Assembly (NCBI GenBank): GCA_025359885.1
Contig: JANYDG010000027.1
Coordinates: 1 to 64,000 of the forward strand
Direction of reading: 5' to 3'
DNA: 64,000 bases
DNA from: Acidobacteriota bacterium
GTDB lineage: Bacteria > Acidobacteriota > Terriglobia > Terriglobales > Acidobacteriaceae
Part shown: positions 10,145 to 51,937 of the stretch, piece after piece
How positions within the stretch are numbered: position 1 is the stretch's first letter
Layout: each line of letters begins with the position of its first letter
Notes under the pieces: generated by a model
Database searches by the model: none
Seen by the model: the letters and a program-made list of their open reading frames with translations, nothing else
Told to the model about the DNA's origin: nothing
Made by a program: the position numbers and the translations under genes

Positions 10145-11725
10145 CTAGTGCATTCCCTGTCCTGCGGTCATGTCCGCGGTTGAAGGTCGTTTCATCAAAA
10201 AGGGAAGGGGAACCAGGAATGCAACAATCACTCCCAGCACAAAAAACGCACTGATAAAGGCCAGGACGCTTGCCTGCGCATCAACCATTTGCTGCAATTG
10301 TGCCAGCGAGTGTTGGCCCGCGTTTGCCGAACTGATTCCGGTGCTACTTGCGGATTGTCGCAGCCCCGCAAGGAATCGGTCAAAGAACACATTGCCACGA
10401 TGAAGATGCGCAGCCAGGTCAACTCGACTGATCTGCCGATGACGAGTCAGGTACGAAACCAGGAAAGACACACCAATCGCCCCGCCAAGATTCCGCACAA
10501 AGTTGCTGATGCCTGAAACCTGGTTATTGTCCTGCTGCCGCATACCCACATAAGCAAGCGTGCTGATCGGAATGAAGATTAGCGGAATGCCGACCACCTG
10601 GAATACCCGCATCCACACCACCGTCGTAAAGTCAACATACAGTGAGATGCGCATCATCCAGAACATGCTCACCGATGTCAGCAGAAAGCCCAGAGCGATC
10701 ACCTTCCTCGGGTCAAACTTCATCGCAAGAAGTCCCGCTACCGGCATAAGAAGCGCAAGCGCAATCCCCGCCGGCGACAACGCCATCCCCGCCTGCTGCG
10801 CCGAATACCCAAGCTGCAACTGAAGAAACTGCGGAATCAGAATCATCGAACCGTTCAACACCACTCCAAGAACGAAATTCGAAAGGGTCGAGGTAGCGAA
10901 GTTGCGGTTCTTCAGCAGCCGAAGCTGGATGATCGGGTGCTCAAACGTCCATTCTCGCCACACCATCGCAATCAGCGCAGTCGCTGAAAGAGCCGCAAAC
11001 GCGCAGATCACTCCCGAATCAAACCACTCAAGCTGTTCGCCCTTATCCAGCACATATTGCAAAAACCCAACTCCCAGAACAATGCTGACAATGCCAAAGT
11101 AGTCGGTTTTTTCGCCCTGCTTCTCCTTCGCCTCAATCACATGCGGGGGGTCATGCACCACCCGTTGGGTCAGGATCAGAGAAATAATCCCGATAGGCAC
11201 GTTGATGAAAAAGATCCAGTGCCAACTAAAGTTCTCCGTGATCCATCCCCCCAGTGTCGGACCAATAGCCGGGGCCACCACAATCGCCATTCCATAGATG
11301 GCAAAGCCCATGTTTCGCTGCGCCGGCGTGAAAGTATCAGCGAGTATCGCCTGCTCGCTCGGCCCCAGCCCACCGCCCCCCAGCCCCTGCATCACGCGAA
11401 ACATGATCAGCATCGGCAAACTCGTTGCCATACCGCAAAGCATCGAACTCAGCGTAAACAGAACTACGCAGGCCATATAAAACCGCTTGCGTCCAATCCG
11501 CGTTGAAAGCCACCCGCTCATCGGAAGAATGATCGCGTTTGCCACAAGGTAGCTGGTCTGCACCCATGTGCTCTCATCCCCTGTCGCCCCCAGACTCCCT
11601 GCAATATGCGGCAGGGCGACATTGGCAATCGAGGTATCCAGCACCTCCATAAACGTCGCCAGAGTCACCGTCATCGCGATCACCCACGGGTTAAAGCGCG
11701 CCGGAGCCGCTATCACCTGACCCAT
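10145..11725 (-). CDS. DHA2-family drug:proton antiporter (EmrB-like)
   Basis: 526-residue inner membrane transporter of the major facilitator superfamily, DHA2 (14-helix) class. It has the DHA2 start PWVIAMTVTLATFMEVLDTSIANVALPHIAGSL, motif A GWLSTRIGRKRFYM, and motif C in the IVVAPAIGPTLGGW region followed by WIFFINVPIG. The last helix is followed by a short cytoplasmic tail. It overlaps the end of the upstream HlyD-type gene by 13 bases, forming an emrAB-like operon. With that adaptor and an outer membrane channel encoded elsewhere it would pump toxic compounds out of the cell. The substrate is not predictable. Confidence 0.9.
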   Translation of the reverse strand: MGQVIAAPARFNPWVIAMTVTLATFMEVLDTSIANVALPHIAGSLGATGDESTWVQTSYLVANAIILPMSGWLSTRIGRKRFYMACVVLFTLSSMLCGMATSLPMLIMFRVMQGLGGGGLGPSEQAILADTFTPAQRNMGFAIYGMAIVVAPAIGPTLGGWITENFSWHWIFFINVPIGIISLILTQRVVHDPPHVIEAKEKQGEKTDYFGIVSIVLGVGFLQYVLDKGEQLEWFDSGVICAFAALSATALIAMVWREWTFEHPIIQLRLLKNRNFATSTLSNFVLGVVLNGSMILIPQFLQLQLGYSAQQAGMALSPAGIALALLMPVAGLLAMKFDPRKVIALGFLLTSVSMFWMMRISLYVDFTTVVWMRVFQVVGIPLIFIPISTLAYVGMRQQDNNQVSGISNFVRNLGGAIGVSFLVSYLTRHRQISRVDLAAHLHRGNVFFDRFLAGLRQSASSTGISSANAGQHSLAQLQQMVDAQASVLAFISAFFVLGVIVAFLVPLPFLMKRPSTADMTAGQGMH

Positions 11726-12924
11726 ACCGTTGCCTCAATCGACATTCCCGGCCGCAGCCGCGCCACGCCCTCCTGATTCGCATTCAGTCGTATGCGCACC
11801 GGCATTCGCTGCACCACTTTGATGTAGTTGCCGGTCGCGTTCTCAGGCGGAAGAATACTGCTCCGGGAGCCTGTAATCGCGGGAATGCTCTCGACCGTGC
11901 CTTCAAAGTCCTGTTTCAATGCATCCACATGAATCTTCGCGCGACGCCCAGGGTACATCCTCGCCAGTTGCGTCTCCTTGAAGTTCGCCGTCACCCACGT
12001 GTCCCCGGTTGCAACGATCATCATCAGCGGTTGCGCCTCGCTCACCCGATTGCCAAGCTCAGCGCTCCGCTGCGTCACAATTCCACGCACCGGTGAAACA
12101 ATGTGACAAAAGCTCAGGTTCAGTTCTGCGCGGCTCAATTGCGCCGCCGCAGCCTCGACATTTGCCTGCGCCGTCGCCAGATTTGCTTCCCGAATCGAGA
12201 TCTGGCCTGGCGCGGTTCGCGTTGTTTGCTCACGCCGGGCCGTCTGCGCTTGAATCTCGGCCTTCCGCTGCTCCACAAGCTTCTCCGACGAAGCCACATT
12301 CGCTCGCGCAGCATCCACATTCGCGTCGGCTGCGTGAGCAGACGCGACCGCCCGGTCATAGTCCTGCCGCGAAATCGTGCCAGCCTGAAAAAGCTGTTCA
12401 TTGCGCAGGAGCCCTGCATCATCGCGCGACCGAATCGCCTCGGCTTCCGCCACCTTTGCCAGCGCACTCGTCAGATCCTGGGAAGCCGCTGCATAGCCTG
12501 ACTTGGCCTGCGCCACTTGGACATCCCCAGTAATCGCTGCTGCCGCATTGTCTGCCACCGCCATGCCAACCGAAGGCCGTTGCGCGTTCAACTGTGCCAC
12601 TGCCTGGTCATATTCAGCCTTCGCCTGGGCATACGCGACCTTTTGCTCGCTGGGGTCAAGATCCACCAGCAACTGACCAGCCTCCACCGTTTGGTTATCC
12701 GTTACATACACCGTGGCAGTCGTACCCGAAATCCGCGAACTCACTACGTTCAGGTGACCATCCACCTGGGCGTCGTCGGTCGTTTCATAGCCCTGCGAAT
12801 AAACCGCCCATCCCGTCACCGCTCCAACAACCAGCAAAACGGCAAATCCCGCGATCAAAAATCGCGAGGTCTTCTTCTCGCCGCGCACCACCGAGAGCTC
12901 TGCCTGATCCAAAACTTGTGTCAT
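11713..12924 (-). CDS. HlyD/EmrA-type membrane fusion protein
   Basis: 403 residues if started at the ATG at 12924 (MTQVLDQAELSVVRG). A longer reading to 13140 would run through the TetR gene on the other strand and the operator, so it is rejected. An N-terminal membrane helix (FLIAGFAVLLVVGAVTGWAVY) is followed by the EmrA signature YETTDDAQVDGHLNVVSSRISG. A long alpha-helical coiled-coil rich in Ala/Gln/Glu follows, then the second lipoyl half (LSFCHIVSPVRGIVTQRSAELGNRV) and the beta-barrel segment. It links the EmrB-like pump to an outer membrane channel. Expression is probably controlled by the divergent TetR protein through the palindrome just upstream. Confidence 0.9.
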   Translation of the reverse strand: MTQVLDQAELSVVRGEKKTSRFLIAGFAVLLVVGAVTGWAVYSQGYETTDDAQVDGHLNVVSSRISGTTATVYVTDNQTVEAGQLLVDLDPSEQKVAYAQAKAEYDQAVAQLNAQRPSVGMAVADNAAAAITGDVQVAQAKSGYAAASQDLTSALAKVAEAEAIRSRDDAGLLRNEQLFQAGTISRQDYDRAVASAHAADANVDAARANVASSEKLVEQRKAEIQAQTARREQTTRTAPGQISIREANLATAQANVEAAAAQLSRAELNLSFCHIVSPVRGIVTQRSAELGNRVSEAQPLMMIVATGDTWVTANFKETQLARMYPGRRAKIHVDALKQDFEGTVESIPAITGSRSSILPPENATGNYIKVVQRMPVRIRLNANQEGVARLRPGMSIEATVWVR

Positions 12925-12935
12925 ACTTAAAACAT

Positions 12936-12949
12936 ACCGACCAGTCAGT
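12936..12949. promoter_or_regulatory. Candidate TetR operator for the efflux operon
   Basis: ACCGACCAGTCAGT lies 12 bases before the emrA-like start and 52 bases before the tetR start. Compared with its own reverse complement it is an imperfect palindrome (10 of 14 positions). It closely resembles ACYGACNRGTCRGT-type operators used by several TetR repressors. Binding here would block both divergent promoters. This is inferred from position and symmetry. Confidence 0.65.
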
Positions 12950-13000
12950 TTGTTGTCAACACCGAAACCGTCGTCCATGTAAAAATGAGGGAAGTCGTCT

Positions 13001-13615
13001 ATGGAATCGCCAGGTAAACAACAAATTCGAACCCAGGAAACCCAGGCACGTCTTCTCGACGCCGCTGAAACGGTCTTCGTTCGGGACGGATACGAAAACG
13101 CCCAGCTGGACGAAATTGCCGCCACCGCAGGCAGAAGCAAAGGTGCCGTTTACAACCACTTCAAGAGCAAAGAGGATCTCTTCCTCGTGCTCTACGAGCA
13201 CCGCACCAGGGCCTATGTCGAGCGGTTGTTCCTCAGTCTGCAAAAATGCAAAAGCAGGCAGGAGAGCTTCGCAGCATTTCGCGCCTTCTATGTCGGCCTG
13301 GTAGGCGACAGGATCTGGCCCATCCTCACCCTTGAATTCAAGCTCTTTGCACTCCGCCGTCCCGAATCGAAGGAGCGCTTCCGCAAGGCCTTCGAAATGG
13401 CCAAGGCGACCAACTACGATTCCACACACGAGCAGCTGTTCGGCCAAATCACGCCCGACAAAAAGTCAGGCAATGAAATGTCTGCATTGGCTCTCGGCCC
13501 CGTTCTCTCCGGACTCATTCTCGAGAGCCATTTCGAACCCGAAAAGCTCTCGGAAGAAGCGCTTCAACGCATCCTCGGCCGCATCTTCGATGCCCTTTTT
13601 CCGGCCCCGCGTTGA
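13001..13615 (+). CDS. TetR/AcrR-family transcriptional regulator
   Basis: 204 residues. The N-terminal HTH domain is typical: TRLLDAAETVFVRDGYENAQLDEIAATAGRSKGAVYNHFKSKEDLFLVLYEHR (given here only as a region, about residues 11-60). The recognition helix is RSKGAVYNHF. The C-terminal ligand-binding domain resembles the C-terminal half of AcrR-like repressors. It is divergent from the EmrAB-type operon with a palindromic operator in between, so it most likely represses that pump and its own gene until a toxic ligand binds. No other target is evident. Confidence 0.88.
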   Translation: MESPGKQQIRTQETQARLLDAAETVFVRDGYENAQLDEIAATAGRSKGAVYNHFKSKEDLFLVLYEHRTRAYVERLFLSLQKCKSRQESFAAFRAFYVGLVGDRIWPILTLEFKLFALRRPESKERFRKAFEMAKATNYDSTHEQLFGQITPDKKSGNEMSALALGPVLSGLILESHFEPEKLSEEALQRILGRIFDALFPAPR

Positions 13616-13664: not shown

Positions 13665-14993
13665 CTACTTGGGTGCCGCCCCGTCCTTGGGGGCTGCTGA
13701 GGCTGCCGGACTTGCCGCTTTATCAGCGGTTGCTTCCGTTGGCTTGCCGGTCGGCGCAGCTGCCGCAGTAATGCGCCGTCGGTCCGCTGCCTTTTGCAAT
13801 CCCTCTTCTCGCTTTGCCTTTTCGGCGGCCGCTTCGGTGTCAGTCACGTAGCGGAAAACCTGCAATCGTCCCGGCTCCTGCTCCGTCGTAAACACCCGGT
13901 TCTGCTTGTCAATCGCCACTCCCATCAGCGATTTGAACTGGCCAGGCAGCTCTCCATGCCCGTTTCCGATATACGTCAGCAACTGTCCTTCACGATTGAA
14001 GACCTGCAGCCGGTCCTCCATCTGGTCCGTCACCCAGATGTGGCCGTCGCCATCCACGGCAATGCCTTTCGGCCGCGCGAAATAGCCAGGCCCATCGCCA
14101 TGCTTGCCAAACTCGCTGATGTAGGCTCCGTCCGCATCAAAAATCTCCACGCGGTTATTCAGCGTATCCGTCACATACACATTGCCCTCTCCGTCCAGCG
14201 CAACGCCCTGCGGCGCGCCAAAGTCTCCAGGCGTCGTCAGAAAGTGGTTCTTTCCGCCGGTTCCAATCCGTCGCAGCAGCTTGAGCGAGTCCGCGTCGTA
14301 GACGATTACCTGGTCCTGCTGCGTGTCCACCACATAGACAAATCGGTTCGTCGTGTCGATGGCCAGCCCCACCGGGTCCACCAATCCCTCTGAAATCTGA
14401 TTCTCTACCTCGTGCTTGCGGTTGAAAATCAGCACACGATGCATCTTGCCATCCGAAACAAACAGCCGGTCGTCGTCATCGATGGCCAATCCATTGACCC
14501 AGCCAAAGTTGGCTTCCACACTATTGCGGATCATGTGGCAATCGCGGGTTTTCGTGTTGAAGATGAAAACCGCACCGACTCTCTGGTCTGCCACATACAC
14601 CAGCCCCTCAGAATCAATCGCGATACCGTACGGTCCGATCATCTGAAACGGGAAAGTCTTCGTATTGACCTTCTCCGGCTCAGACTGACCACCCGCGAGC
14701 CGGTCCATCCAGCTCGCCTTGGGCTTGGCATTTGCTGTCGGCGTGTAGTCGATCTTGGCCCCGGCAAAATAGTCCAGCCATTGAATGCGCGCAATGTTCG
14801 GCGGGCTTGGCCAAGCCAGCTTGGTCGGGTCAAAGCCAAATTTTCGCGGTCCCACCTCGGCTGTAGTTGCAGGTTCCGCCTTCTTTTTCGTGCCTGCACC
14901 TGCACTCAGAGGAGCCATCAGGCCCAGCGTAAGCAAAAGCAGCAGAGCGAGACTGTTGCGGCGGCAGATCGGGTTCAGGGGTAAGCGAAACAT
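13665..14993 (-). CDS. Secreted six-bladed NHL beta-propeller protein (last gene of cytochrome operon)
   Basis: 442 residues from ATG14993, which has GGAG six bases upstream; a TTG at 15005 is a weaker alternative. Signal peptide: NSLALLLLLTLGLMAPLSAGAG. Six NHL repeats are visible, each with a G-[IVL]-A-[IV]-D start and a V-[TAS]-D core: PYGIAIDSEGLVYVAD, VNGLAIDDDDRLFVSD, PVGLAIDTTNRFVYVVD, PQGVALDGEGNVYVTD, PKGIAVDGDGHIWVTD and LMGVAIDKQNRVFTTE. The C-terminus is an Ala/Lys/Pro-rich tail. It follows the 16-heme cytochrome gene without a gap. Beta-propellers of this kind accompany multiheme cytochromes in extracellular electron transfer clusters. An OscD-like role is an analogy, not shown by sequence identity. 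Confidence 0.85.
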   Translation of the reverse strand: MFRLPLNPICRRNSLALLLLLTLGLMAPLSAGAGTKKKAEPATTAEVGPRKFGFDPTKLAWPSPPNIARIQWLDYFAGAKIDYTPTANAKPKASWMDRLAGGQSEPEKVNTKTFPFQMIGPYGIAIDSEGLVYVADQRVGAVFIFNTKTRDCHMIRNSVEANFGWVNGLAIDDDDRLFVSDGKMHRVLIFNRKHEVENQISEGLVDPVGLAIDTTNRFVYVVDTQQDQVIVYDADSLKLLRRIGTGGKNHFLTTPGDFGAPQGVALDGEGNVYVTDTLNNRVEIFDADGAYISEFGKHGDGPGYFARPKGIAVDGDGHIWVTDQMEDRLQVFNREGQLLTYIGNGHGELPGQFKSLMGVAIDKQNRVFTTEQEPGRLQVFRYVTDTEAAAEKAKREEGLQKAADRRRITAAAAPTGKPTEATADKAASPAASAAPKDGAAPK

Positions 14994-15005
14994 GTTCATC
15001 TCCAA

Positions 15006-16574
15006 TTATTTTCCCGGGAAATTCGTATCTTTCATGTTGATCCGGTTCTTGTGGCAGTTGTCGCAAAAGGCTGTGTTGTTGATCTGGTCGTTCATCAGCA
15101 GGCCCGGCCGCGCTGACGCGTGTGACTGGTGGCACGAAAGGCAACTCAGCGGCGTCTTCACCTTGCTCTGGTTCGTCGGATCCATCACGTCAGAGACGGG
15201 GTGATACTCCACCGGGTGCCCAAGACCATAGCGCAGTGGCAAAATTGGAACTCGATTCGTCTTGTAGTAGTCTTCCGGCAGCTTTACCTGGCCGTTGAAG
15301 ATGGTCAGCAGGTGAGTGGCTTCATCCTTTTCCGCAGCCGAATCAGGCCCATGACACTCCAGGCACAACGCGTTTCCCTTGGCGCGCAGCAAGTGCTCAT
15401 TGTCGCCCCCATGAGGGGTATGGCATGTGCCGCACCCCTGCGTGAAGGCGGGCTGATGATGCACTGATTTCTTCCGCAAATCATCAATGTCTGTGTGGCA
15501 TCCAAGGCAGATCGTTACTCCATCCGTCTTCGGCAACCCGGGTTCGCTGCTGGCGTGTGGGTTATGACAATCCGTGCAATCACCCATCGCGCCGGCATGC
15601 GGCACCTTTGCCGAATCGATCAACTTCGCCTTGTCGTCATGGCACGTTACGCACAGCGTCTTTACATCCTTCTGCGCGAGAACCACTTTCCCATCCTTTG
15701 TCGCCAGGTGGCAGGTCTCGCAACTGTTTCCGGCAAAGGGCACATGCAAAAACTTCGCCATCAGCTTCGGGGCGTCCGACTGGTGCGGATTGTGGCATTG
15801 CACGCAATTGGCAGTCCCAAATGGCTGATTCTGATGCGCCTTTTGCAAGCCAGCGTCCTTTACGTCGTGGCAATCGACGCAGAGCGCCGGAGCCACCTTG
15901 GTCAGATGAAACCGGTTCTCTTGTGTCGGTTCAGCGCCCGTCTTGTGGGTCGTATGGCAGGTGTCACAGCCCGCCTCCAGCGCCGCATGGCGGCTGCCTT
16001 TCTCCGGAACATGCAGGCCAGTCTTATGACAACTCAGGCAAAGATTCTCCTTTTCGTCGCCAGATTCAGGCTTCACCAGCAACGCCTTGTTGTCACTGGA
16101 GTGCGGATCGTGGCACATCAGGCAGTCGCGCACCGCTGGAGGATGCACCGTCCCCTTGATTTCAGCAGCTTTCTTATCCGTATGGCAGGTCAGGCAAAGC
16201 CCATTCGCCGAAGCCGTAATCAGCTTCACACGGGTCACATCCTTGTTCACCCTCACCTCGTGGCAACTCAAACATCCCGTCGCCAGCGCCGAATGAACAA
16301 ACTTGTGCTTCGTCTTGTCGTCGTGGCATTCAAGGCACTGCTTGGCGTCCGTGTTCTTATCCAGAGGAACCGGATGAACCGCCGCCATTGCCGGCAACGT
16401 AACTAGCACCATCAGGGCCAGGCAGATCTTGCCGCCCCAGCCCAAAATACCTGCGTTACCCACCCCTCTACCAATCCAGCCGCGATCTGGCCGAACGTTC
16501 ACACAAACTCCGAAAGAAAAATAATCCACGACACTCCTTAAAACCACATGAACCGGATGCTCAGCAGCATTCAC
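15006..16574 (-). CDS. Exported 16-heme c-type cytochrome
   Basis: 522 residues from a GTG start overlapping the previous stop (GTGA) with GGAGG five bases upstream. A GTG at 16463 would give a cleaner signal peptide (GKICLALMVLVTLPAMAA). I count 16 CxxCH heme sites: CLECH, CLSCH, CLTCH, CLMCH, CLSCH, CDTCH, CVDCH, CVQCH, CETCH, CVTCH, CTDCH, CLGCH, CGTCH, CLECH, CLSCH and CDNCH. Most are of the CxxCH-x-PH or doubled CxxCH type of periplasmic or outer membrane electron carriers. It is co-transcribed with a 12-heme cytochrome, propellers and a beta-barrel protein. It probably moves electrons across or beyond the outer membrane; the direction and partner are unknown. Confidence 0.9.
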   Translation of the reverse strand: MNAAEHPVHVVLRSVVDYFSFGVCVNVRPDRGWIGRGVGNAGILGWGGKICLALMVLVTLPAMAAVHPVPLDKNTDAKQCLECHDDKTKHKFVHSALATGCLSCHEVRVNKDVTRVKLITASANGLCLTCHTDKKAAEIKGTVHPPAVRDCLMCHDPHSSDNKALLVKPESGDEKENLCLSCHKTGLHVPEKGSRHAALEAGCDTCHTTHKTGAEPTQENRFHLTKVAPALCVDCHDVKDAGLQKAHQNQPFGTANCVQCHNPHQSDAPKLMAKFLHVPFAGNSCETCHLATKDGKVVLAQKDVKTLCVTCHDDKAKLIDSAKVPHAGAMGDCTDCHNPHASSEPGLPKTDGVTICLGCHTDIDDLRKKSVHHQPAFTQGCGTCHTPHGGDNEHLLRAKGNALCLECHGPDSAAEKDEATHLLTIFNGQVKLPEDYYKTNRVPILPLRYGLGHPVEYHPVSDVMDPTNQSKVKTPLSCLSCHQSHASARPGLLMNDQINNTAFCDNCHKNRINMKDTNFPGK

Positions 16575-18463
16575 TTTCGTCCTCCGATCCGTCCGCGCAG
16601 CCCAGCCGCAGACACCGTTCCATCGGGATTATGAGCAACCAGGTGGCAAACCAGGGTGCAACTATTGGTAGCGCGGTTGTAGCTCACCGGAAGGTTACCG
16701 TTCGGGGCAACAACATTCATGTCAAAGTTCACCAGCCGCTCTCCGCTCACACTGGCATTGGTGGCTCCCATACCGTGCGCCGTATGGCAGGTAGAGCAGC
16801 TCACGCCTGCGTCCATGTGGGCGCTGTGCTTGTTCCAGCTCGTGTTCCGATGGATCTGGTTTGCCAGGTCGTGGCACTTGCCACAGAGCGCATAGGGTCC
16901 ATTCACGCTGAGGTCCGGGTTGGGAAACAAATTCGAGATCGCCTGTCCCGGCACCGCTGCCTGGCTGAATTCATACCGCCGCTCCAGAATGTGCGTCCAT
17001 CGTGAACCATGAGGACCGTTCGCGCCCGGGCCGCCAGACTCGCGATTATCGTCGCTGTTGTGGCAGTCCGTACAGAGCACCTGCGTACCCATCGCACGCC
17101 CCGGCGTGATTCCATCCAGGTTCAACATATTTCCCAGCAGGCTCGGCTGCGCCAGAGAACTGCTTCGGGCATGCATCACCGGATGACTAGACGTCGCCCC
17201 GACAGCAAACTGCGGTATCTGATTCAATGCGTCGCCAGCCGAAACCGCACGCACCGGAAAGTAGCCATAAATCGGCAGCACCTGTTTGCTGGAACTGGTT
17301 CCGTGACAACGCAGGCAATTCTCGTACTGATTCACGGCCGGCGCAAGCACGCTCGTTCCGTCGCTCGCCTGGATGCCCGCAATATTCTTCTGCGAGATGC
17401 GAATCTGCGGCGCAGGCGGAAAGACCCCCACCGGCTCAGATCCATGCGCGCTATGGCAGTCAACGCAGGTAGCGTGTCGATTGTTGTTCAGCAGCACACC
17501 TTCCGTCGCATCATGCGGATTGGTCGCGGCCGGGAAGGGATGGCCCACCTTGGGCGCAGCATATTCGGCAAACACGTTCGCGCTGGGCGGCATCGGCGAA
17601 ACATTCGCCCCGCCATTGTGGCAAGCAATGCAATCCAGCTCATTCTGCCCACGCAGCAGCCTTGCCGGGCCCGTCGAGTTGTGCGGAGCATGACATGAGA
17701 TACACGCCGCACCCGCCACGGTCGGGTAGCTGCCCAGCAAAGCCTGGGGTGAAATCTTGCTCGTAGACAGCGCATGCGCACTCGCGGTCCAATCCGCCAG
17801 CGGATTTACCTGGCCACCTATCGTCCGCAGGGGATCATGACAGGCCAGGCAAAGCTGCCCATTCGAGCCGTCCTTCACCAAAAAGTTCCGTGAAATCGGA
17901 TCCTTCGACTGCACATGCGGATTGTGACACGACATGCACTCCACGTTTCCCTTGATCAGTGTCACCGCTCCCGTTGCGTCAGCAGTATGCCCATTCGCCA
18001 CCAGCGACGCCGCCAGGGTGATATTGTCCTTCAATGGCGGCGTCAGGCTAAAGGGGTGCGAAGACTGCAGGTTGCTCCCAAATACGTCGCTCGTTTGCAT
18101 CGAACCCTGCGTCACCACCTGCCCATAGGCCACGGTCGCGCCGACCGCTACCGTGCCGTCATGGCAGCTCAGGCACTGGTTGCTGCTGGTCCCAAGCACT
18201 GGCTGCGTACTCACATTTTTCGCTGTATTACTGTTGTAGGTCGTGTAAATCTGCGTCGTAAGCTTCTGATTCCACAAGCCAATATTCAATCCAGAGTGCG
18301 GAGCGTGGCAGTAGGCGCAGGCCTCAGGCCGTGCCCCGGTGATGTGCGACCCACTCCCCGGGCCCAGGCTATGAACCCCCAATGCGTCCCCGGTTATCTG
18401 CGCCGGCAAAGAGCTGCACATCAACAGGGTCAGCATCACGGTCAGCAAAATTCTCATCTTCAC
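16571..18463 (-). CDS. Exported multiheme cytochrome c, 11 CxxCH plus one CxxxCH
   Basis: 630 residues from a GTG start (GTGA overlap with the previous gene; ATG18457 is the alternative). Signal peptide: LLTVMLTLLMCSSLPAQ. Heme sites: CAYCH (C49), CLSCH (C97), CMSCH (C176), CLACH (C205), CISCH, CIACH, CVDCH, CLRCH, CTDCH, CGKCH and CSTCH, and finally CTLVCH, a wider CxxxCH site. The first four motifs and their surroundings (CHAPHSG, LW, CLSCHDG, HP, CHNPH) mirror the separate tetraheme cytochrome encoded at 22601-23479, which suggests a shared module. Its location in an operon with propellers, a beta-barrel and an isomerase implies a role in extracellular electron transfer. The redox partner is unknown. 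Confidence 0.9.
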   Translation of the reverse strand: MKMRILLTVMLTLLMCSSLPAQITGDALGVHSLGPGSGSHITGARPEACAYCHAPHSGLNIGLWNQKLTTQIYTTYNSNTAKNVSTQPVLGTSSNQCLSCHDGTVAVGATVAYGQVVTQGSMQTSDVFGSNLQSSHPFSLTPPLKDNITLAASLVANGHTADATGAVTLIKGNVECMSCHNPHVQSKDPISRNFLVKDGSNGQLCLACHDPLRTIGGQVNPLADWTASAHALSTSKISPQALLGSYPTVAGAACISCHAPHNSTGPARLLRGQNELDCIACHNGGANVSPMPPSANVFAEYAAPKVGHPFPAATNPHDATEGVLLNNNRHATCVDCHSAHGSEPVGVFPPAPQIRISQKNIAGIQASDGTSVLAPAVNQYENCLRCHGTSSSKQVLPIYGYFPVRAVSAGDALNQIPQFAVGATSSHPVMHARSSSLAQPSLLGNMLNLDGITPGRAMGTQVLCTDCHNSDDNRESGGPGANGPHGSRWTHILERRYEFSQAAVPGQAISNLFPNPDLSVNGPYALCGKCHDLANQIHRNTSWNKHSAHMDAGVSCSTCHTAHGMGATNASVSGERLVNFDMNVVAPNGNLPVSYNRATNSCTLVCHLVAHNPDGTVSAAGLRGRIGGRK

Positions 18464-19569
18464 CGTGTCGCCTCCCGCACTGTACCGCCCGCTGCCTTTT
18501 GACCCGCGTACTGAAATACCTGTACCCGTCGATTGAATGAATCCACCACAAACACCTTGTCATCATGGTCGATGAACATGCCGGAAGGCAGTTGGAACTC
18601 CCCGGCATGCGTTCCCTTCGTGCCAAAGGAGTAAAGTAACGCTCCCGCGCGGTTGAACACCTGCACCGCTCCCCACAAAGCGTCCACCACATACAGATCG
18701 CCTTCCGAATCGACGCTCACCGCCTTCGGCCGGAACATCGCCCCAGTCGAGTCGCCCGTCTTGCCGATCGCGTACTGAAAGGCGCCGCCGCGGTCAAACA
18801 CCTGCACGCGAAAGTTCATCGCATCCACCACCAGCAGGTTTGGCCCGCTCAATCGAATTTCGGTCGGCAGGTTGAATTCACCCTCGCCCTCCCCCGTCTT
18901 CCCAATCTTTTCAAGGACGGTCCCCTGCATGTCCAACACAAAAACCTGGTCGCGCAACGTGTCCGTTACATAGATCCGCTGTTCCGCCGAGTCGACAGCA
19001 ATGCCGGTAGGGCGCTTGAAATAACCCTCACCACCCTTCAGGCTGCCAATCGCCCGCACAAACTTGCCACTCGCCGCAAAAACAAAGATCTTGCCCGCCT
19101 CTGAATCCGTGACATAGATGTTGTCCTGGGCATCGACAGCAACACATTGTGGTGTCGTCATGGGGTCTTTGCCCTTTTCCCTGCGCTCGATGAACTTGTA
19201 CTTGCGCTGTGCAAAATCAAAGATATGCACTCCCGATGCCCCAGGGTCGGTCACAAGAATGCGTCCCCGCGAATCAGTCGCGATGCCATACGGCCGCACC
19301 AGAAAACGGTAATCCGGTGCCCCGGCAACCACATCCACCAGCTTGGTCCAAAATCCCCGATTCAGATTTACCTCCGCTTCAGATCTGAAACTGTGCTCCC
19401 AGGTAAGCTTGCGGCCTCCATCCAGCGACATCTCCCACTGTTCCGACGCAACGGCTGGCTTCAATTTGGGCGCAGCCAATATCCAACACGGCAACAGCGC
19501 CAGGTACGCCAAAACGAGACCTGCGCTCCTGCCGTGATGAAACCATCGAATTAGAAAAAGTTGAACCAA
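18460..19569 (-). CDS. Secreted six-bladed NHL beta-propeller protein
   Basis: 369 residues from a TTG start (GGGGA upstream), overlapping the end of the beta-barrel gene by 19 bases and the start of the 12-heme cytochrome by four. The N-terminal hydrophobic stretch AGLVLAYLALLPCWILA is a signal peptide or anchor. Six NHL blades are seen: PYGIATDSRGRILVTD, PQCVAVDAQDNIYVTD, PTGIAVDSAEQRIYVTD, PTEIRLSGPNLLVVD, PKAVSVDSEGDLYVVD and PSGMFIDHDDKVFVVD. Tight overlaps mean it is translated together with the barrel and cytochrome, so it is likely part of, or an assembly factor for, the same complex. It is a paralogue of the NHL gene at the operon's end. Confidence 0.85.
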   Translation of the reverse strand: MVQLFLIRWFHHGRSAGLVLAYLALLPCWILAAPKLKPAVASEQWEMSLDGGRKLTWEHSFRSEAEVNLNRGFWTKLVDVVAGAPDYRFLVRPYGIATDSRGRILVTDPGASGVHIFDFAQRKYKFIERREKGKDPMTTPQCVAVDAQDNIYVTDSEAGKIFVFAASGKFVRAIGSLKGGEGYFKRPTGIAVDSAEQRIYVTDTLRDQVFVLDMQGTVLEKIGKTGEGEGEFNLPTEIRLSGPNLLVVDAMNFRVQVFDRGGAFQYAIGKTGDSTGAMFRPKAVSVDSEGDLYVVDALWGAVQVFNRAGALLYSFGTKGTHAGEFQLPSGMFIDHDDKVFVVDSFNRRVQVFQYAGQKAAGGTVREATR

Positions 19570-21383
19570 CGTGATATCCCCATGTAATACGAAGAAATAA
19601 TCTCTGGCTTGGAACCGGTGCTGCCAAAACCCTGTTCCATCCGCGCATACCCACTGATCAGGTTCAGCTTGCGCAGCCGGTACTGCAGCAGCACGTTGTA
19701 TTGGCTGTTTTCATTGGCTGACGAAATACTGTTGCTGAACGTATTGCTCGTGGATCTGGCATAGGTGCCCGCCAGGATCAGCTTCTTGATCGGCGTGCTC
19801 GATACCCCGATCGAATAGCTCTTTCCACCAAACAGACTCACCAGGCCAGGGGGCAAAACCGGCGGCGGTACCGGCACGCCAACCAGCCCCGTTCCCGTCA
19901 AAAGCGCTTCGCCATCTGACTTTGAATAATTCCCGGAAGCCGTCAGCAGCGAACCATACCCCACGCTTGCGCTGTACGACTGGCTGCTGTTCGAGAGCCC
20001 GGCCTGGTCCGTCAAAGCCGTCCGAGAGCCGCCCGCTCCCGCGCTGATATTCAGCAGGCCCCAGTTGCGACGCAAGCTCCCCGAGTAAAAATAAAACGAA
20101 TTCGTATACGTCACCAGCAGCGTCTGAGCATTTTGCGCATAGCTGAATGCCTCATTCACATGCCATCCCAGCACCACGTTGGAGTAGTTCTCAGTCGCTG
20201 AAAAACCAACCGTGTCCTGGCCGTTCTGGTCCGCAGAGTTGGCCGTCACACTCACCGCCGTATTGATAATCCCGTTCAAAAGCTTGTGGGCATACGTCGC
20301 GCTGCCCCCCAGTGAGGTAACTCCGTAATCCCGCCCGGAAAATGACTGTGTCCGGCGCTCAACATACGCTGAAGTCTGCAAATTGATTTGCGGAGAATAC
20401 GACGCAACCCCCATCAGGTCCAGCGAATTGGAAGACTGATTCGAATCCAGTTTCTGACTCGCCCCGCCTGCCGAAATCACTGACTGGATAATTTCGCCCG
20501 CCAGGTTGTCCGAGTAGCTCCCCGTCGCCGTCAGTGACAGCCTGTTCATTGGGTGCACGCCCGCCGTCGCATTCACCGTGTCAATTGTTCCGCTCGAACT
20601 CGCTCCCAGATAGTTGGTCTTCCATGTTGAACGATTGACACCACCCGTTAACGAACCATGCAGCGGAAGCAGGTGCGAAAGATTCGCCCCATAGGCATTG
20701 TTGTCAGAGTGTATCTCCAGTGTCGAACCAGCCACCACGGGCGGAATCCGAGATTGGCCCGCACCGTTGGTAAAGTAACCTCCCACATTGAAACCCGACC
20801 ACGCATAGCCCGAATGCAGATTCAGCGAACGAAATGAATTCTTCCCGGAGCTGTTTGACCCGTATACCGAATACGCGCTCGTCCCTCGCTGGTAGCCCGC
20901 TGAAAGACTAGGCACATTCGGCAGATTCTCGCTCCAGTTCACGCCAATCGTGTCACTGTTTCCGTGGGTCACATAGTTCGAAAGTCCAGGAACTGCAAAG
21001 TTTCCCTCGCTGTTGTAAGCCTTTGAATAGGTGAAGGAACCTGGAAATCTGCTGCCTGCAAAGATATTCGCGCTCACGTTCACGCCGCTTGCATCAGAAA
21101 TCGACTGAAAATTGGAATTCGCTCGCGACTGGTTCAGATAAGGCGAAACGTTATAGGAGAGGAAATTAGGACTATGGAAGGATCCAGACAGCGCTGCCGC
21201 ACCTCCAACCGACCATCCATGCGAGGATCCGGTCAGGTTGCCATAATTCGCCGTATATCCAGTCGAGATTGTCCCGGTCGCGCGGTTGCTTGTTTCACCC
21301 AGCCGGATCTGCGCAGCAACGGGGATTGCAAGCACCAGAAGCACTGCACCTAAAAACCTCGTGATAGGAAAAGACCGCACCAC
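19551..21383 (-). CDS. Outer membrane beta-barrel protein of cytochrome operon
   Basis: 610 residues from a GTG start, with a signal peptide (FLGAVLLVLAIPVAAQ). The mature protein is rich in Ser, Asn, Gly, Tyr and Thr, with many alternating-hydrophobic strands (for example LSYNVSPYLNQ, FTYSKAYN, SLTATGSYSDN, VVLGWHVNEAFSY). It ends in MGISRWFNFF, a terminal Phe as recognised by the BAM machinery. It has no TonB plug. By size and context it could be the porin-like sheath or channel of a porin-cytochrome conduit, or the export channel for a cytochrome filament. The barrel assignment is inferred from composition and C-terminus; I do not recognise a named family. Confidence 0.75.
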   Translation of the reverse strand: MVRSFPITRFLGAVLLVLAIPVAAQIRLGETSNRATGTISTGYTANYGNLTGSSHGWSVGGAAALSGSFHSPNFLSYNVSPYLNQSRANSNFQSISDASGVNVSANIFAGSRFPGSFTYSKAYNSEGNFAVPGLSNYVTHGNSDTIGVNWSENLPNVPSLSAGYQRGTSAYSVYGSNSSGKNSFRSLNLHSGYAWSGFNVGGYFTNGAGQSRIPPVVAGSTLEIHSDNNAYGANLSHLLPLHGSLTGGVNRSTWKTNYLGASSSGTIDTVNATAGVHPMNRLSLTATGSYSDNLAGEIIQSVISAGGASQKLDSNQSSNSLDLMGVASYSPQINLQTSAYVERRTQSFSGRDYGVTSLGGSATYAHKLLNGIINTAVSVTANSADQNGQDTVGFSATENYSNVVLGWHVNEAFSYAQNAQTLLVTYTNSFYFYSGSLRRNWGLLNISAGAGGSRTALTDQAGLSNSSQSYSASVGYGSLLTASGNYSKSDGEALLTGTGLVGVPVPPPVLPPGLVSLFGGKSYSIGVSSTPIKKLILAGTYARSTSNTFSNSISSANENSQYNVLLQYRLRKLNLISGYARMEQGFGSTGSKPEIISSYYMGISRWFNFF

Positions 21384-21501
21384 TCAACGCCATCCTTAAC
21401 ATCTCTCGTGTAGGATTCCGCATCTTCAATCCTGACCGAGCCCTCCGGATCTAATTGCTTTTCCTGGGCCGATGATGACTTCTGGCTCCTTTCGACATTG
21501 A

Positions 21502-22530
21502 CTAAAGCTCTTCGACCTTCGCGTTCTGTCGCAGCTTCTTGTCCAGCGCAGCCTGCACCTGGTTGCTTCTCGCCTGTTGCAGCTCCTTTTGCAACTGTGT
21601 CCGTACCTCTGCAAATCTTGTTTGACCTGCCGGGGTGTGCGCCTGCAGCCGCACGATTGTGTAGGCCTGCTCCACCTGCAGCAGATCGCTCACATCATTC
21701 GGGTGCATCGCAAGCAGCGCCTTCACCACCTGGGGAGCCAATTCATCCACCCCAACAGGCTTGTGTTGGCCCATCATCACCCGGTAGTCGTCGTCAGAGA
21801 GCTTCTCCGCCAGCAGCCCAAAATCGTCCGCCGTCTTTGTTCCCTTCGCCTGTCGCAGCGCGTTCTCGGCCCGGGTCCGAGCTTCCTTCAACTGCTCGGC
21901 TGTCGCCTTTGCCGGGGGTAGAATCGAAATTGTCTGGAAAGTAAACGCCTCAGGATGATGAAAGCGAGCCGCGTTTTTGTCGTAGTAGGCTCGTATCTCC
22001 GCCGCCGTAACCACGCTCTTATCCTGGACCTGCAACTTGAGATACGCTTCAATCAACAGCGATCGCCGTATCTTTTCCCGCAAAAGTGGAGTGGATCCGT
22101 GAAAATCGTTCTGCAGAAAAGCGTTGTACTCGGCCGGCGTAGCAAACTGCTTCCGAAATTCTGCCTCGGCAGCCTGTAGCTTTGACGGCGCTACCGTCAT
22201 TTTCCCCCGCAGCGCCTCCTGGTACACCAGCTCTTCAAAAATGATCATCTGCAGCGCGCCATCGCGAATCTGCTTTTCCAACTCCTTCGGGATACCGTTA
22301 TGCTGCTTCGCATAAGGAAAGATCGCGTACTCCTCGCGAACCAGGTCCACGTCCGTCAGTATCGCGCTGTTCACCCGCACAACCGGCTTGCCAGAGAATA
22401 AGAGTGTGCTTTTCGCCGAACCTTGGGAAGGAGATTTTTGAAACACGGTAGGTGTATGGGAAGACACCTGTGCAACACACAATGGAACTGAAAATGAAAG
22501 AAATACGGTAAGTAAGGTTGTGCTCTTCAT
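21502..22530 (-). CDS. Periplasmic PpiC/SurA-type peptidyl-prolyl isomerase
   Basis: 342 residues from ATG22530. The in-frame extension upstream covers the terminator and is rejected. The signal peptide MKSTTLLTVFLSFSVPLCVAQ is followed by a SurA-like N-terminal helical region (NSAILTDVDLVREEYAIFPYAK, KLQAAEAEFRKQFATPAEYNAFLQ). A parvulin domain follows (about residues 190-300, including FHHPEAFTFQTISILPP, DFGLLAEKLSDDD, PVGVDELAPQVVKALLAMHPNDVS and YTIVRLQ). It is the first gene of the operon that encodes the barrel, propellers and two large cytochromes. A chaperone role for these exported proteins or for the neighbouring tetraheme cytochrome is likely. Its place matches the isomerase (OscH) of nanowire assembly clusters. 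Confidence 0.85.
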   Translation of the reverse strand: MKSTTLLTVFLSFSVPLCVAQVSSHTPTVFQKSPSQGSAKSTLLFSGKPVVRVNSAILTDVDLVREEYAIFPYAKQHNGIPKELEKQIRDGALQMIIFEELVYQEALRGKMTVAPSKLQAAEAEFRKQFATPAEYNAFLQNDFHGSTPLLREKIRRSLLIEAYLKLQVQDKSVVTAAEIRAYYDKNAARFHHPEAFTFQTISILPPAKATAEQLKEARTRAENALRQAKGTKTADDFGLLAEKLSDDDYRVMMGQHKPVGVDELAPQVVKALLAMHPNDVSDLLQVEQAYTIVRLQAHTPAGQTRFAEVRTQLQKELQQARSNQVQAALDKKLRQNAKVEEL

Positions 22531-22549
22531 TGGTTTGACCCCCGTTCTG

Positions 22550-22585
22550 AAAAAAGAGGGAGGGGGAAAACTGCTACCCCCTCCC
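22550..22585 (-). terminator. Strong rho-independent terminator after tetraheme cytochrome gene
   Basis: On the minus strand GGGAGGGGG pairs perfectly with CCCCCTCCC around a 10-base loop, followed by TCTTTTTT. It starts 15 bases after the tetraheme cytochrome stop. It separates that gene from the isomerase operon, so the cytochrome can be made at a much higher level than its companions. Confidence 0.9.
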
Positions 22586-22600
22586 ATCATCGTTCAACAT

Positions 22601-23479
22601 TTAGAAAGTAGTCACTGCCGTGCTGCCGGACATCTCATTGCTCTCGCCACCGTGGCACTGGCGGCAGAATTGCGCCGTCTGGTTGCTGCCAGCTGTGCCG
22701 CTCGCCGGGTTGTAAGGAGCGCGAATGAAGAACATCGTTGCATACGTTCCCGTCGGCAACCCCGACTTCGGCCCCGTGGTGACGCTCACGACGTTCATCA
22801 AATGCTGGTTGTGGCAGGTCGTGCACATCACGACGGGCGTGTTGTTGTACGCAGCTGGCCGCACAAAGAATCCGTAATTGGTCACAAACTGGCTCGACTT
22901 GGCCCCGGTCATCAGGACTGCACCCGTCGCGCTGATCGAGCAATCCCAGTCATACGGTCCGCCGCAGCCAATTACTGCACTCAGGCCTACCGGATGGTCG
23001 TTCAGATAGTTGCCAACTGTGCTGCCGTCGTTGCCAAGCAGCGTTGGGATGCTGTTCAAGGTTCCGTACGTCGCTGGCAACGTCTCGTACACCTTGTTCT
23101 TCATCATCGCGCCGGTGGCATAGTTGCCGTCATGGCAGCTAAGGCACATCAGCACGCCTGCGACATCCGGCGTGCCAGAGGTCGTGCTCGTCGGCAATAC
23201 TTCAACAACATTGCCATGCTCACTCTGACCCGTCGTGATCGTCTTGCCGTAAAGGCTACTGACGTCCTCGCCCCAAAGTGCATTGTTTCCTGAAGTTGCA
23301 TCCGCGGTTTTGGCGTTGCCGTTTCCGTAGGCGCCGCTGTGGGGTGCATGGCACGCTGTACAGCCGCGCCCGTAGTTGAGATGGGCGCCGAGGACATCAG
23401 TCGACGGCGTTGCAATCTGCGCCGCTGCAAAGCCGGTCGCCCCGAAAATCATGATCGCTAGTGCTAAACATCGTTTCAT
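22601..23479 (-). CDS. Exported tetraheme c-type cytochrome, candidate nanowire subunit
   Basis: 292 residues with a signal peptide (cut after GFAAAQ, residue 21). Four CxxCH sites: C40-TA-CH, C112-LS-CH, C219-TT-CH and C272-RQ-CH. Two extra cysteines (C172, C180) could form a disulfide. The surroundings CHAPHSG, CLSCHDG, DHPVG and CHNQH are shared with the N-terminal part of the 12-heme protein in the next operon. The size and heme number are like Geobacter OmcE and archaeal tetraheme filament cytochromes, and the adjacent genes are isomerase, barrel and propellers. It has its own strong terminator and a 373-base upstream region. Filament formation is inference; a soluble or surface-bound electron carrier is the alternative. 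Confidence 0.87.
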   Translation of the reverse strand: MKRCLALAIMIFGATGFAAAQIATPSTDVLGAHLNYGRGCTACHAPHSGAYGNGNAKTADATSGNNALWGEDVSSLYGKTITTGQSEHGNVVEVLPTSTTSGTPDVAGVLMCLSCHDGNYATGAMMKNKVYETLPATYGTLNSIPTLLGNDGSTVGNYLNDHPVGLSAVIGCGGPYDWDCSISATGAVLMTGAKSSQFVTNYGFFVRPAAYNNTPVVMCTTCHNQHLMNVVSVTTGPKSGLPTGTYATMFFIRAPYNPASGTAGSNQTAQFCRQCHGGESNEMSGSTAVTTF

Positions 23480-48369: not shown

Positions 48370-49575
48370 TCACAGCTTGTCAAACAGCGTAACCCGCGGG
48401 TCCTGATTATTCAGCTTCGCAAACTCCCGCATGATCTCCCGGCTCCGCTCATCATTCAACTGCGGTATCTGCACCTCCACCGTCACAATCTGGTCGCCCC
48501 GCTGCCCCGCTGCTGAAGCGCTCTCAACCCCCCGCTCCCGCATCCGCAGCTTTTGTCCGCTCTGCGTCCCCGGCGGAATCCGCAACTGAGCTCGCCCCCC
48601 CTCAATCGTCGGCACATCTACCTTTGAGCCCAGCGTCGCCTCCGCCAGCGTAATCGGCACCGTCAGGTGAATATCGTCTCCCACCCGCGTAAAAACCGGG
48701 TGCGTCCCCGTCCGTACAATCACATACAGGTCCCCCTGCGCGCCGCCACCCGTCCCAGCATTCCCCTTGCCCTGCAATCGAATCCGCTGCCCATCCCGCG
48801 TTCCCGCCTTGATCCGAAACTCGATCGACTCCGTCCGGTACACCAGCCCCTCGCTCTGGCACGTCGGGCACGCATTCGATATCCGTCCCGATCCCTGGCA
48901 CCGCGGGCAAGCAATATTAAACTTCATCCGCCCACCCATCTGCGTCACCTGCCCCGTTCCGCTGCACTCCGGGCAAGTCATCGGCGCGCCAGTTGAAGCC
49001 TGACCATGGCACGTCGGGCAAACCTCCTGCCGCCGTACCTCAATCCGCGCATTCCCCCCGCGTATAGCCGTCCAGAAATCAATCGGTGCCTGATACTCCA
49101 GATCCGTCCCCGCCTCCGGCCCACGACCGCGCCTCTGCTGCTCCGTACCCGTAAAGATCCCCGAAAAAATATCCTTGAAACTTCCCCACGAAGCAGACCC
49201 GGAACCCTGAGGCCCCGCACCCGCAGCCGGTGCCTGACCCGCCCCAAATCCAGAAAAGTCAAAGCCCCCAAAATCCACCGGCGGACCCTGGCGCGCTCCT
49301 GCCTGCTGTCGCGCGTACGCTTCCGCCGTCGCCGGGTCAATCTGGTCTGAATAGAACCCCACCTGGTCAAACACCTTGCGCTTCTTCTCGTCGCTCAAAA
49401 TGTCGTTGGCTTCAGAAATCTCCTTGAACTTCTCCTCAGACTTCTTGTCGTTCGGGTTCACGTCCGGATGATACTTCCGCGCAAGCTTACGAAACGCCTT
49501 CCGGATCTCATCCGAAGTCGCCGTCTTCTTCACGCCCAGAGTGCCGTAATAGTCCTTGTTTTGGGTATTGGACAT
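48370..49575 (-). CDS. dnaJ: Chaperone protein DnaJ
   Basis: 401 residues from ATG49575 ([24 protein letters not shown]). The longer frame upstream has no family similarity. J domain with the HPD loop ([14 protein letters not shown]), a Gly/Phe-rich linker ([24 protein letters not shown]), and a zinc domain with four CxxC units: [23 protein letters not shown] and CPTCQSEG. The C-terminal substrate-binding domain follows ([20 protein letters not shown]-like [17 protein letters not shown]). DnaJ delivers unfolded clients to DnaK and stimulates its ATPase. The next genes downstream are the BrnT-like pair and hspR. Confidence 0.95.
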
Positions 49576-49939
49576 AGTCGCCTGTCTCAAGTCTACGGCA
49601 ATCTGCGCCGACTCGTATCTGATTATCTTCAAACACCATGCTCTATCGGCTGCCCGGTTCAAAAGTAGAGTTGTCACCCGCGAGCGCCGACATTTCCCGC
49701 CAGCCACCCCATCCGCCGCGCCAGTTGAGCCTGCGAAAGCCCGCCCCTTGAGCACTTCGCCGTGTCTTTCTGCCCGTCATTCCCTGCGTCATCATGTGTG
49801 AAATATCGCATTTTGGCTATGGGCGTTTTCACCCTTGGGCCAATGCACAAACCAACCAAATCTCACGCAAACCTAAGTCCCTGAAAAAAAGTCACATCCA
49901 ACAAAATTCCTTGACAAAATCCAGCCCGGAAAAATCGAT

Positions 49940-49963
49940 GAAATGTTACACGTGTAACATTTC
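49940..49963. repeat. Perfect 24-base palindrome
   Basis: GAAATGTTACAC is followed directly by its exact reverse complement with no spacer. The core TGTTACACGTGTAACA has the look of a dimeric regulator's operator. It lies about 70 bases after the dnaK stop and 365 bases before dnaJ. No T-run follows, so termination is unlikely. Confidence 0.85.
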
Positions 49964-49981
49964 CGTGTCACACAGCAAACA

Positions 49982-50008
49982 GGGTGGGCGACAGCCTGTC
50001 GCCCACCC
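49982..50008 (-). terminator. 13-bp perfect hairpin downstream of dnaK
   Basis: GGGTGGGCGACAG and CTGTCGCCCACCC pair exactly around one base, 25 bases after the dnaK stop. A weak TGTTTG follows on the minus strand. It may be a terminator or mRNA stabiliser between dnaK and dnaJ, or a member of a dispersed repeat. Confidence 0.55.
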
Positions 50009-50032
50009 CATCCCGAGCTCCGCCAGCTCCGC

Positions 50033-51937
50033 TTACTTCTTCTCGTCGACGTCCACATACTCCGCGTCGATGACGCCTTCGTCCTTCTTCGCTTCAGCAG
50101 CCGGCTCCTCAGTCGGAGAGGCACCAGCGGCTGCATTTGCCTTGTAGAGAACCTCGGCCATCTTGTGCGAAGCAGCAGTCAGCTTCTCCTGTGAGGCCTT
50201 CAGTTCTGTGACAGAGGGCGTGCCGCCGAGCGTGGTCCGCGCTTCCGCAAGAGCCGCTTCGACTTCAGTGCGCTCCGTACCCTGCACCTTGTCGCCAGCT
50301 TCTTTCAGCATCTTTTCGATGTTATAGGCGAGAGAATCGAGGGAGTTGCGGGTTTCGATCAGCTCGCGCTGTTCCTTATCCTCGGCTGCGTGTGCATCCG
50401 CTTCCTTGGCCATGCGCTCCACTTCCTCTTTGCTCAGACCTGAGCTGGAGGTGATGGTGATCTTGGTGTCTTTTCCAGTTGCGTTGTCCTTCGCGGTTAC
50501 GTTGAGGATGCCGTTTGCGTCGATGTCAAATGTGACTTCAATCTGCGGCACGCCGCGCTGGGCGGGGGGGATGCCGGCCAGCTTGAACTTACCGAGCGTT
50601 CGGTTTTGTGCGGCCATGGGGCGCTCGCCCTGGAGGACGTGCACTTCGACTTCGGTTTGCGAGTCGGCCGCCGTCGAGAAGGTTTCAGACTTCTTGGTGG
50701 GGATGGTCGTGTTGCGGGGAATCATGGGTGTGGCCACGCCGCCGAGGGTTTCGATGGCCAAGGTCAGCGGGGTCACGTCGAGCAGCAGCAGGTCTTTCAC
50801 GTCGCCTGCGAGTACGCCGGCCTGAACGGATGCGCCGATGGCTACGACTTCGTCAGGGTTGACGCCGCGATGAGGTTCCTTGCCGAAAAGCTGCTTGACC
50901 AGCTCCTGGATGCGGGGCATGCGGGTCTGGCCGCCGACGAGGACGACTTCATCGATCTTGCTGGCGGTGATGCCGGCGTCGGCGAGAGCCTTCTTGGTCG
51001 GTTCGAGCGAACGCTGCAGCAGATCTTCAACGAGCTGCTCGAGCTTGCCGCGGGTCAGCTTGCGGACGAGGTGCTTGGGTCCGGTGGCGTCGGCGGTGAT
51101 GAAGGGCAGGTTGATTTCGGTCTCGACAGTGGTTGACAGCTCGATCTTGGCCTTTTCGGCTGCGTCCTTGAGGCGCTGGAGGGCCATTTCGTTGCCCTTG
51201 GATGCCAGGTCGAGGCCTTCTTCTGTTTTAAATTCTGCGATGAGCCATTCGACGATGCGCTGGTCGAGGTTATCGCCGCCGAGGTGGGTGTCGCCGTTGG
51301 TCGACTTAACTTCAATGACGCCTTCGCCGACTTCGAGGATGGAGATGTCGAAGGTGCCGCCGCCGAAGTCATAGACGGCGATTGTTTCATCCTTTTTCTT
51401 ATCAAGGCCGTAGGCGAGGGCGGCAGCCGTGGGCTCATTGACGATGCGCTTGACGTCGAGGCCGGCGATCTTGCCGGCGTCTTTGGTGGCCTGGCGCTGG
51501 GCGTCGTTGAAGTAGGCGGGGACGGTGATGACGGCCTGGGTGACGGTTTCGCCGAGGTAAGCTTCTGCGGCTTTCTTCAGCTTTTGTAGGATCATCGCCG
51601 AGATTTCCGGGGCTGTGTAGGGTTTTCCCTGGGCATTGACGACGATGTGGTCGCCCTGCGACTCAACCTTATAGGGGACCATCTTCATTTCGTCGTTGAC
51701 TTCGTTGTAGCGACGGCCCATGAAGCGCTTGATGGAAAAGATGGTATTTTCCGGGTTGGTGATGGCCTGACGCTTGGCGACCTGGCCGACGAGGCGTTCG
51801 CCGGATTTGGAGAAGGCCACGATGGAAGGGGTGGTGCGCGCACCCTCTTCGTTGGCGATGACTTTGGGCTCGCCGCCCTCGAGGACGGCGACGCAAGAGT
51901 TTGTGGTTCCGAGATCGATGCCGATAATTTTTGCCAT
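50033..51937 (-). CDS. dnaK: Chaperone protein DnaK (Hsp70)
   Basis: 634 residues, full length. ATPase domain: [18 protein letters not shown] (phosphate 1), [59 protein letters not shown] (phosphate 2) and [17 protein letters not shown] (adenosine). The linker is [18 protein letters not shown], then the beta-sandwich peptide-binding domain and helical lid. The end [15 protein letters not shown] is typical. It folds and disaggregates proteins together with DnaJ and GrpE; grpE is not in this window. The HAIR-like site upstream suggests HspR control. The plus-strand base composition changes from C-rich to G-rich inside this gene. Confidence 0.98.

Follow-up and report, generated by a model that had tools for sequence, protein, structure and literature searches.

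The undecaheme electron transfer (Uet) complex has been described in Tenderiales and Gallionella (Eddie 2022, via PMC10734462). Its parts are given there as the tetraheme cytochrome UetA, the isomerase UetB, the β-barrel UetC, the NHL proteins UetH and UetI, the undecaheme cytochrome UetJ, and the periplasmic triheme cytochromes UetD, UetE, and UetG. The hemes of cytochrome wires are all bis-His ligated, and in the Geobacter filament subunit OmcE one heme receives a ligand from the adjacent subunit (PMC12307469, PMC12954529). How such nanowires attach to the cell remains an open question. A seven-gene set with a bearing on this question is present in a 64,000-nucleotide stretch of the genome of a soil acidobacterium (assembly GCA_025359885.1, contig JANYDG010000027.1, positions 1 to 64,000; hereafter the window). 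Read from 23479 to 13665, all on the minus strand, it encodes a tetraheme cytochrome (MHC4), a PpiC-type isomerase, a β-barrel protein, an NHL propeller (NHL1), a 12-heme cytochrome (MHC12), a 16-heme cytochrome (MHC16), and a second NHL propeller (NHL2). The locus is very probably an extracellular electron transfer cluster, and it is reasonably probable that it is a Uet-type cluster in which MHC4 builds an OmcE-type filament on a porin-cytochrome conduit.

The argument for a filament starts from the relationship of the window cytochromes to OmcE. A single-sequence search of the PDB with MHC4 returned nothing useful, and profiles were required. With the profiles of both the tetraheme and the 12-heme family, OmcE (7TFS) and 9YUQ outrank all other multiheme cytochromes in the whole PDB; the 12-heme profile finds OmcE at 5e-30 (full length) and 9YUQ at 1.2e-22, with the next match at 4.5e-7, and the tetraheme profile finds 9YUQ at 6.7e-8 and OmcE at 7e-5. 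With a 61-sequence tetraheme profile, OmcE obtains 167.6 bits, and none of 1000 motif-preserving shuffles exceeds 30.9 bits; 69.7 bits are retained when every CxxCH is masked. MHC4 itself reaches 60.3 bits against a profile built from 44 other tetrahemes and OmcE, compared with 21.2 bits for the best of 1000 motif-preserving shuffles. In a phylogenetic tree, the OmcE orthologues fall within the tetraheme family and the N-terminal modules of the 12-heme proteins form one clade across at least eight phyla, with a Shimodaira-Hasegawa-like approximate likelihood ratio test value of 100. Computation thus shows that the MHC4 family and the N-terminal module of MHC12 are homologous to OmcE. Chain N of PDB entry 9yuq, a 218-aa multiheme cytochrome present in 16 chains and homologous to both MHC4 and the N-terminal module of MHC12, is possibly a second filament.

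The arrangement of histidines has also been compared. OmcE contains nine His, eight of which (four in CxxCH motifs and four distal) are invariant in the 44 other tetrahemes, and MHC4 has all eight in the same order, with H33, H47, H162, and H226 as the distal residues. Given bis-His coordination throughout the wires and the ligation of one OmcE heme by the adjacent subunit, the cross-subunit ligand should be one of these four distal His. OmcS uses the His of a CxxCHxxH motif at the first of its hemes (His16), and by analogy the ligand in MHC4 would be H47. MHC12 has 16 conserved His outside CxxCH for its 12 hemes, suggesting spare ligands for filament joints. The initial annotation had cast the tetraheme protein as the filament subunit, and had asked whether heme-binding His occur outside CxxCH and whether the homologous cytochromes are always periplasmic and soluble. 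Profile homology to OmcE supports this as the likely role, and polymerisation is inferred; all four distal His are present, and the nearest characterised homologue, OmcE, is extracellular.

The barrel protein and MHC16 are the parts proposed for a conduit. The structure model of the barrel (predicted local distance difference test score, pLDDT, 76.9) has 28 strands, and the sequence ends in WFNFF. The best PDB fold is MtrB (6r2q_B; E 3.9e-9, Z 14.9), which came top in both structure searches. MHC16 matches the DmsE/MtrA superfamily at a score under the cut-off of that model. The earlier suggestion that the larger cytochromes and the barrel act as an outer-membrane conduit is supported. Elsewhere in the host genome, at a second electron-transfer locus (L181:8315-13052; G000:C80), genes for a DmsE-family decaheme cytochrome (265.6 bits to the family; cut-off 192), a 733-aa Phe-ending barrel-like open reading frame (ORF), and a NapC/NrfH-type pentaheme cytochrome stand in a row, and the genome also has cytochrome c assembly genes. 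This arrangement implies that a quinol-to-periplasm route may exist, and the MtrA-like/barrel-like/NapC-like set could supply electrons.

The 12-heme profile, run against public genomes, found 80 loci in at least eight phyla, and co-occurrence was scored in the 51 loci with at least 7.5 kb of upstream sequence. Of these 51, 49 have a separate tetraheme gene whose His follow the same order, which is the OmcE pattern; an adjacent NHL gene was found in 43, a neighbouring large ORF in 39, and a recognisable PpiC gene in 19. In three relatives (L011-L013) the order is MHC16-NHL2-MHC4-PpiC-barrel-NHL1-MHC12, and in other loci the genes commonly run tetraheme, NHL, pentaheme, barrel-like ORF, NHL, 12-heme. 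Some relatives carry two or three copies of the MHC4 gene (G171, L017, L018). Gammaproteobacterial loci (L055, L058, L066, L075) share the 12-heme and NHL genes, and some of them also match the barrel profile. The 12-heme gene is present in 31 of 396 sampled Acidobacteriota genomes, and the names of the carrier metagenome-assembled genomes often indicate peat, bog, or palsa samples.

A further conserved feature lies between the MHC4 and PpiC genes. Directly after the MHC4 stop codon, the sequence GGGAGGGGG-(10 nt)-CCCCCTCCC followed by TCTTTTTT forms a hairpin of -21.3 kcal/mol (z -2.7), which a simple automatic terminator scan overlooked, probably owing to the loop length. A hairpin and T-run, different in sequence from that of the window, follow the MHC4 gene in 7 of 18 relatives, compared with 1 of 18 after PpiC, 0 of 87 after other cluster genes, and 2 of 600 random windows. 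The strong terminator that the initial annotation had placed after the tetraheme gene is real, and termination behind the subunit gene is a recurrent feature of these clusters, in line with an excess of subunit.

Several observations weigh against a filament joined to a conduit. MHC4 is distant from OmcE (7e-5 even with its own family profile) and falls to 1.1 bits once CxxCH is masked, so the link between the two depends on intermediate sequences and on motif spacing. The AlphaFold2 model of MHC4, made with 61 homologues, is of poor quality (pLDDT 54.5), and Foldseek finds no match for it. The OmcE fold alone does not imply polymerisation, because the same module is also fused inside MHC12, and four distal His for four hemes would suit a monomer equally well as a filament. 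The alignment of the barrel with MtrB is loose (template-modelling score 0.5, root-mean-square deviation 8-10 Å). Additionally, the part played by OmcS and OmcE filaments in Geobacter is itself disputed (PMC11077965). A rival reading is a Uet porin-cytochrome conduit without a filament, in which MHC4 is a monomeric extracellular tetraheme that carries electrons between MHC12 and either an acceptor or a donor. PMC10734462 presents Uet in this way, as a porin-multiheme complex that includes an extracellular tetraheme; the number of distal His in MHC4 equals its number of hemes, and the MHC4 model yields no usable multimer evidence. However, all eight His recur in OmcE, a filament subunit and the closest characterised relative, and the terminator and the MHC4 gene duplications suggest bulk production. 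A conduit of this kind is regarded as possible, though rather unlikely.

If MHC4 does form a filament on a conduit, the locus could work as follows. The cytochromes would be exported by the Sec system and receive their hemes, and the UetB-like PpiC protein may assist folding of the Cys/His-rich cytochromes or of the barrel. The predicted 28-strand MtrB-like barrel would span the outer membrane and enclose a cytochrome to form the conduit, for which the MtrA-like MHC16 is the best candidate. MHC12 would be located at the outer face as the base or cap, forming the joint between conduit and filament, a role suggested by its N-terminal module, which is itself an OmcE-type subunit. From this module MHC4, probably made in excess owing to the terminator behind its gene, would polymerise outward, each junction being closed by a His that reaches from one MHC4 copy to a heme in its neighbour, and the two NHL propellers may act as scaffolds. 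A tentative extension, about which doubt outweighs confidence, is that the UetJ-type 12-heme protein is a hybrid of filament subunit and conduit cytochrome, whose fused OmcE-type module seeds or anchors polymerisation of the free tetraheme.

A fold and origin common to the subunit and the N-terminus of MHC12 would turn the point of connection into a protein interface that can be tested, and a widespread, little-studied cluster, found in Acidobacteriota and many other phyla, would become a predicted nanowire system in soils and peat. Should MHC12 prove to be the seed or anchor, Uet clusters would represent a general nanowire-plus-base machine, explaining how a nanowire plugs into the outer membrane. 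The same parts, with or without a filament, might also run inward, taking up electrons by oxidation of Fe(II), humics, or a partner. Uet is described in cathode-oxidising Tenderiales and iron-oxidising Gallionella (PMC10734462), but nothing in the sequence fixes the direction, and humics or Fe(III) reduction is at least equally likely in the peat, bog, and palsa settings to which many carrier names point. Uptake is considered rather unlikely.

Table 1. Features of the cytochrome cluster, in window coordinates.
Feature	Coordinates	Strand	Description	Basis
MHC4	22601..23479	-	Putative filament subunit of the OmcE family, UetA-like; c-type tetraheme cytochrome of 292 aa with a signal peptide	Profile, 60.3 bits
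Terminator	22550..22590	-	Intrinsic terminator; 9-bp G/C stem and T-run	Fold energy; comparison with relatives
PpiC	21502..22530	-	PpiC/SurA-type peptidyl-prolyl isomerase, UetB-like; probable ATG at 22530, not 22590	Pfam PpiC
Barrel	19551..21383	-	28-strand outer-membrane β-barrel (model), C-terminal Phe; UetC-like, MtrB-like fold	Structure model
NHL1	18460..19569	-	NHL β-propeller, exported; UetH/I-like	Pfam
MHC12	16571..18463	-	12-heme cytochrome, UetJ-like; OmcE-like tetraheme module at N-terminus (residues ~1-212)	Profiles, tree
MHC16	15006..16574 (start approximate)	-	Doubled-CxxCH cytochrome with 16 hemes, related to DmsE/MtrA and to the large osc cytochromes	Pfam
NHL2	13665..15005	-	NHL β-propeller, N-terminus LxWPxPPxxARIxWL	Pfam

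The cluster features are collected in Table 1, and every ORF of the initial annotation, from the tetraheme gene and its terminator through the PpiC protein, the Phe-ending barrel, and the first NHL protein to the 12-heme, 16-heme, and second NHL proteins, was found where it had been placed. The probable PpiC start was moved to 22530 (protein beginning MKSTTLL), as the ORF from 22590 runs across the terminator. MHC4 contains four CxxCH motifs, MHC12 contains 11 CxxCH and one CX3CH (CTLVCH), and MHC16 contains 16 CxxCH. Pfam matches confirm the PpiC protein, the two NHL propellers, and the cytochromes of doubled-CxxCH type, with none returned for the barrel protein. The barrel and NHL1 genes overlap by 19 nt, NHL1 and MHC12 by 4 nt, and MHC12 and MHC16 by 4 nt, while MHC16 and NHL2 abut. 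An EmrA/EmrB-type efflux pair, unrelated to the cytochrome cluster, is located directly downstream on the same strand (10145-13140). Farther along the window, the GC skew flips from -0.25 to +0.27 about position 50000, near dnaJ and dnaK (48370-51937), and an Mrr-type restriction endonuclease gene (60756-61589) has no obvious partner among the ORFs examined.

The initial annotation had read the locus as a divergent version of the Osc (OmcS companion) cluster of Geobacter. Comparison was made with Geobacter-type genomes, recognised by their OmcE (58-59%) and OmcS (up to 72%) identity; the OmcS query was identical to 6EF8 over 407 residues. The osc clusters of these genomes hold OmcS, NHL genes, a 755-775 aa barrel-like protein, PpiC, 26-heme and 16-heme cytochromes, and an NHL gene, so the resemblance of the locus to the Osc/Oet cluster (OmcS companion, OetABI) of Geobacter and relatives is real at the level of parts. 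The best Geobacter-type matches of MHC16 are the osc 26-heme (1.6e-50) and 16-heme (2.7e-44) proteins, which are large cytochromes of the OscI/OscJ type (names assigned from PMC13194489 and gene order), and in both settings the gene after the 16-heme gene encodes an NHL protein. The claim holds for this 16-heme/NHL pair only. The osc subunit is the hexaheme OmcS, which scores 0.44 with the MHC4 profile, whereas the window subunit is a tetraheme of the OmcE type and not clearly of the OmcS type. By hhalign, homology of the window barrel to osc or OmcE-cluster barrels was not detected; the probability against the osc barrel is 3.9% for the window barrel family and 90% for part of the wider Uet-type barrels. 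Orthology of the isomerase to OscH was rejected, as in four Geobacter-type genomes its best non-osc PpiC matches lie at ~1e-22 to 1e-24 and the osc PpiC proteins at 3e-4 to 2e-3 or unlisted. The osc loci examined contain no 12-heme counterpart. Descent from the OmcS-companion operon is disfavoured as very improbable, with Uet closer in gene content.

Related arrangements occur at other loci. In Geobacter-type genomes, at L174:6932-11782, L175:6691-11551, and L176:8581-13436, the 12-heme protein is apparently split into 4-heme and 7-heme genes, which adjoin NHL and PpiC genes and lie near apparent pilus-assembly genes; one of the better Geobacter-type relatives of the window isomerase adjoins split 12-heme and NHL genes. 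An OmcE-like tetraheme gene (L171:3331-3990) lies between OmcS-type genes within an osc cluster, and at L179:1150-10156, L178:5061-9491, and L180:5860-10099 OmcE-like tetrahemes adjoin giant multiheme ORFs (57 CxxCH in 2717 aa; 24 CxxCH in ~1100 aa) and a protein of 900-980 aa that contains NHL-type repeats.

Doubled-CxxCH cytochromes also work with periplasmic reductases, but a set of periplasmic respiratory cytochromes unrelated to extracellular transfer is extremely improbable, given the MtrB-like barrel, the OmcE homology, and domain and family scans that found no catalytic reductase subunit among the cluster proteins. In Geobacter-type genomes, as in the present cluster, OmcE orthologues have NHL genes beside them, together with a barrel-like protein of 700-800 aa; in contrast to the cluster, the closest OmcE orthologues examined have no neighbouring 12-heme or PpiC gene, and their barrel-like protein is not recognisably related to the window barrel. 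The locus resembles Shewanella MtrCAB in that the fold of its barrel is closest to MtrB and MHC16 belongs with the DmsE/MtrA superfamily, but it lacks MtrC and contains additional filament-type subunit, NHL, and isomerase genes. No paper tying Uet to OmcE was found in a partial coverage of the literature, so the link may already be known. The closest published cluster is Uet, not Osc, a likeness of gene content judged from the published description of Uet. As no triheme gene is present in the operon, which has the 16-heme MHC16 in place of UetD, UetE, and UetG, the locus is classified as a Uet-type variant rather than a full Uet cluster. It shares with Uet a tetraheme cytochrome, a PpiC isomerase, a β-barrel, two NHL proteins, and an 11/12-heme cytochrome within a single cluster.

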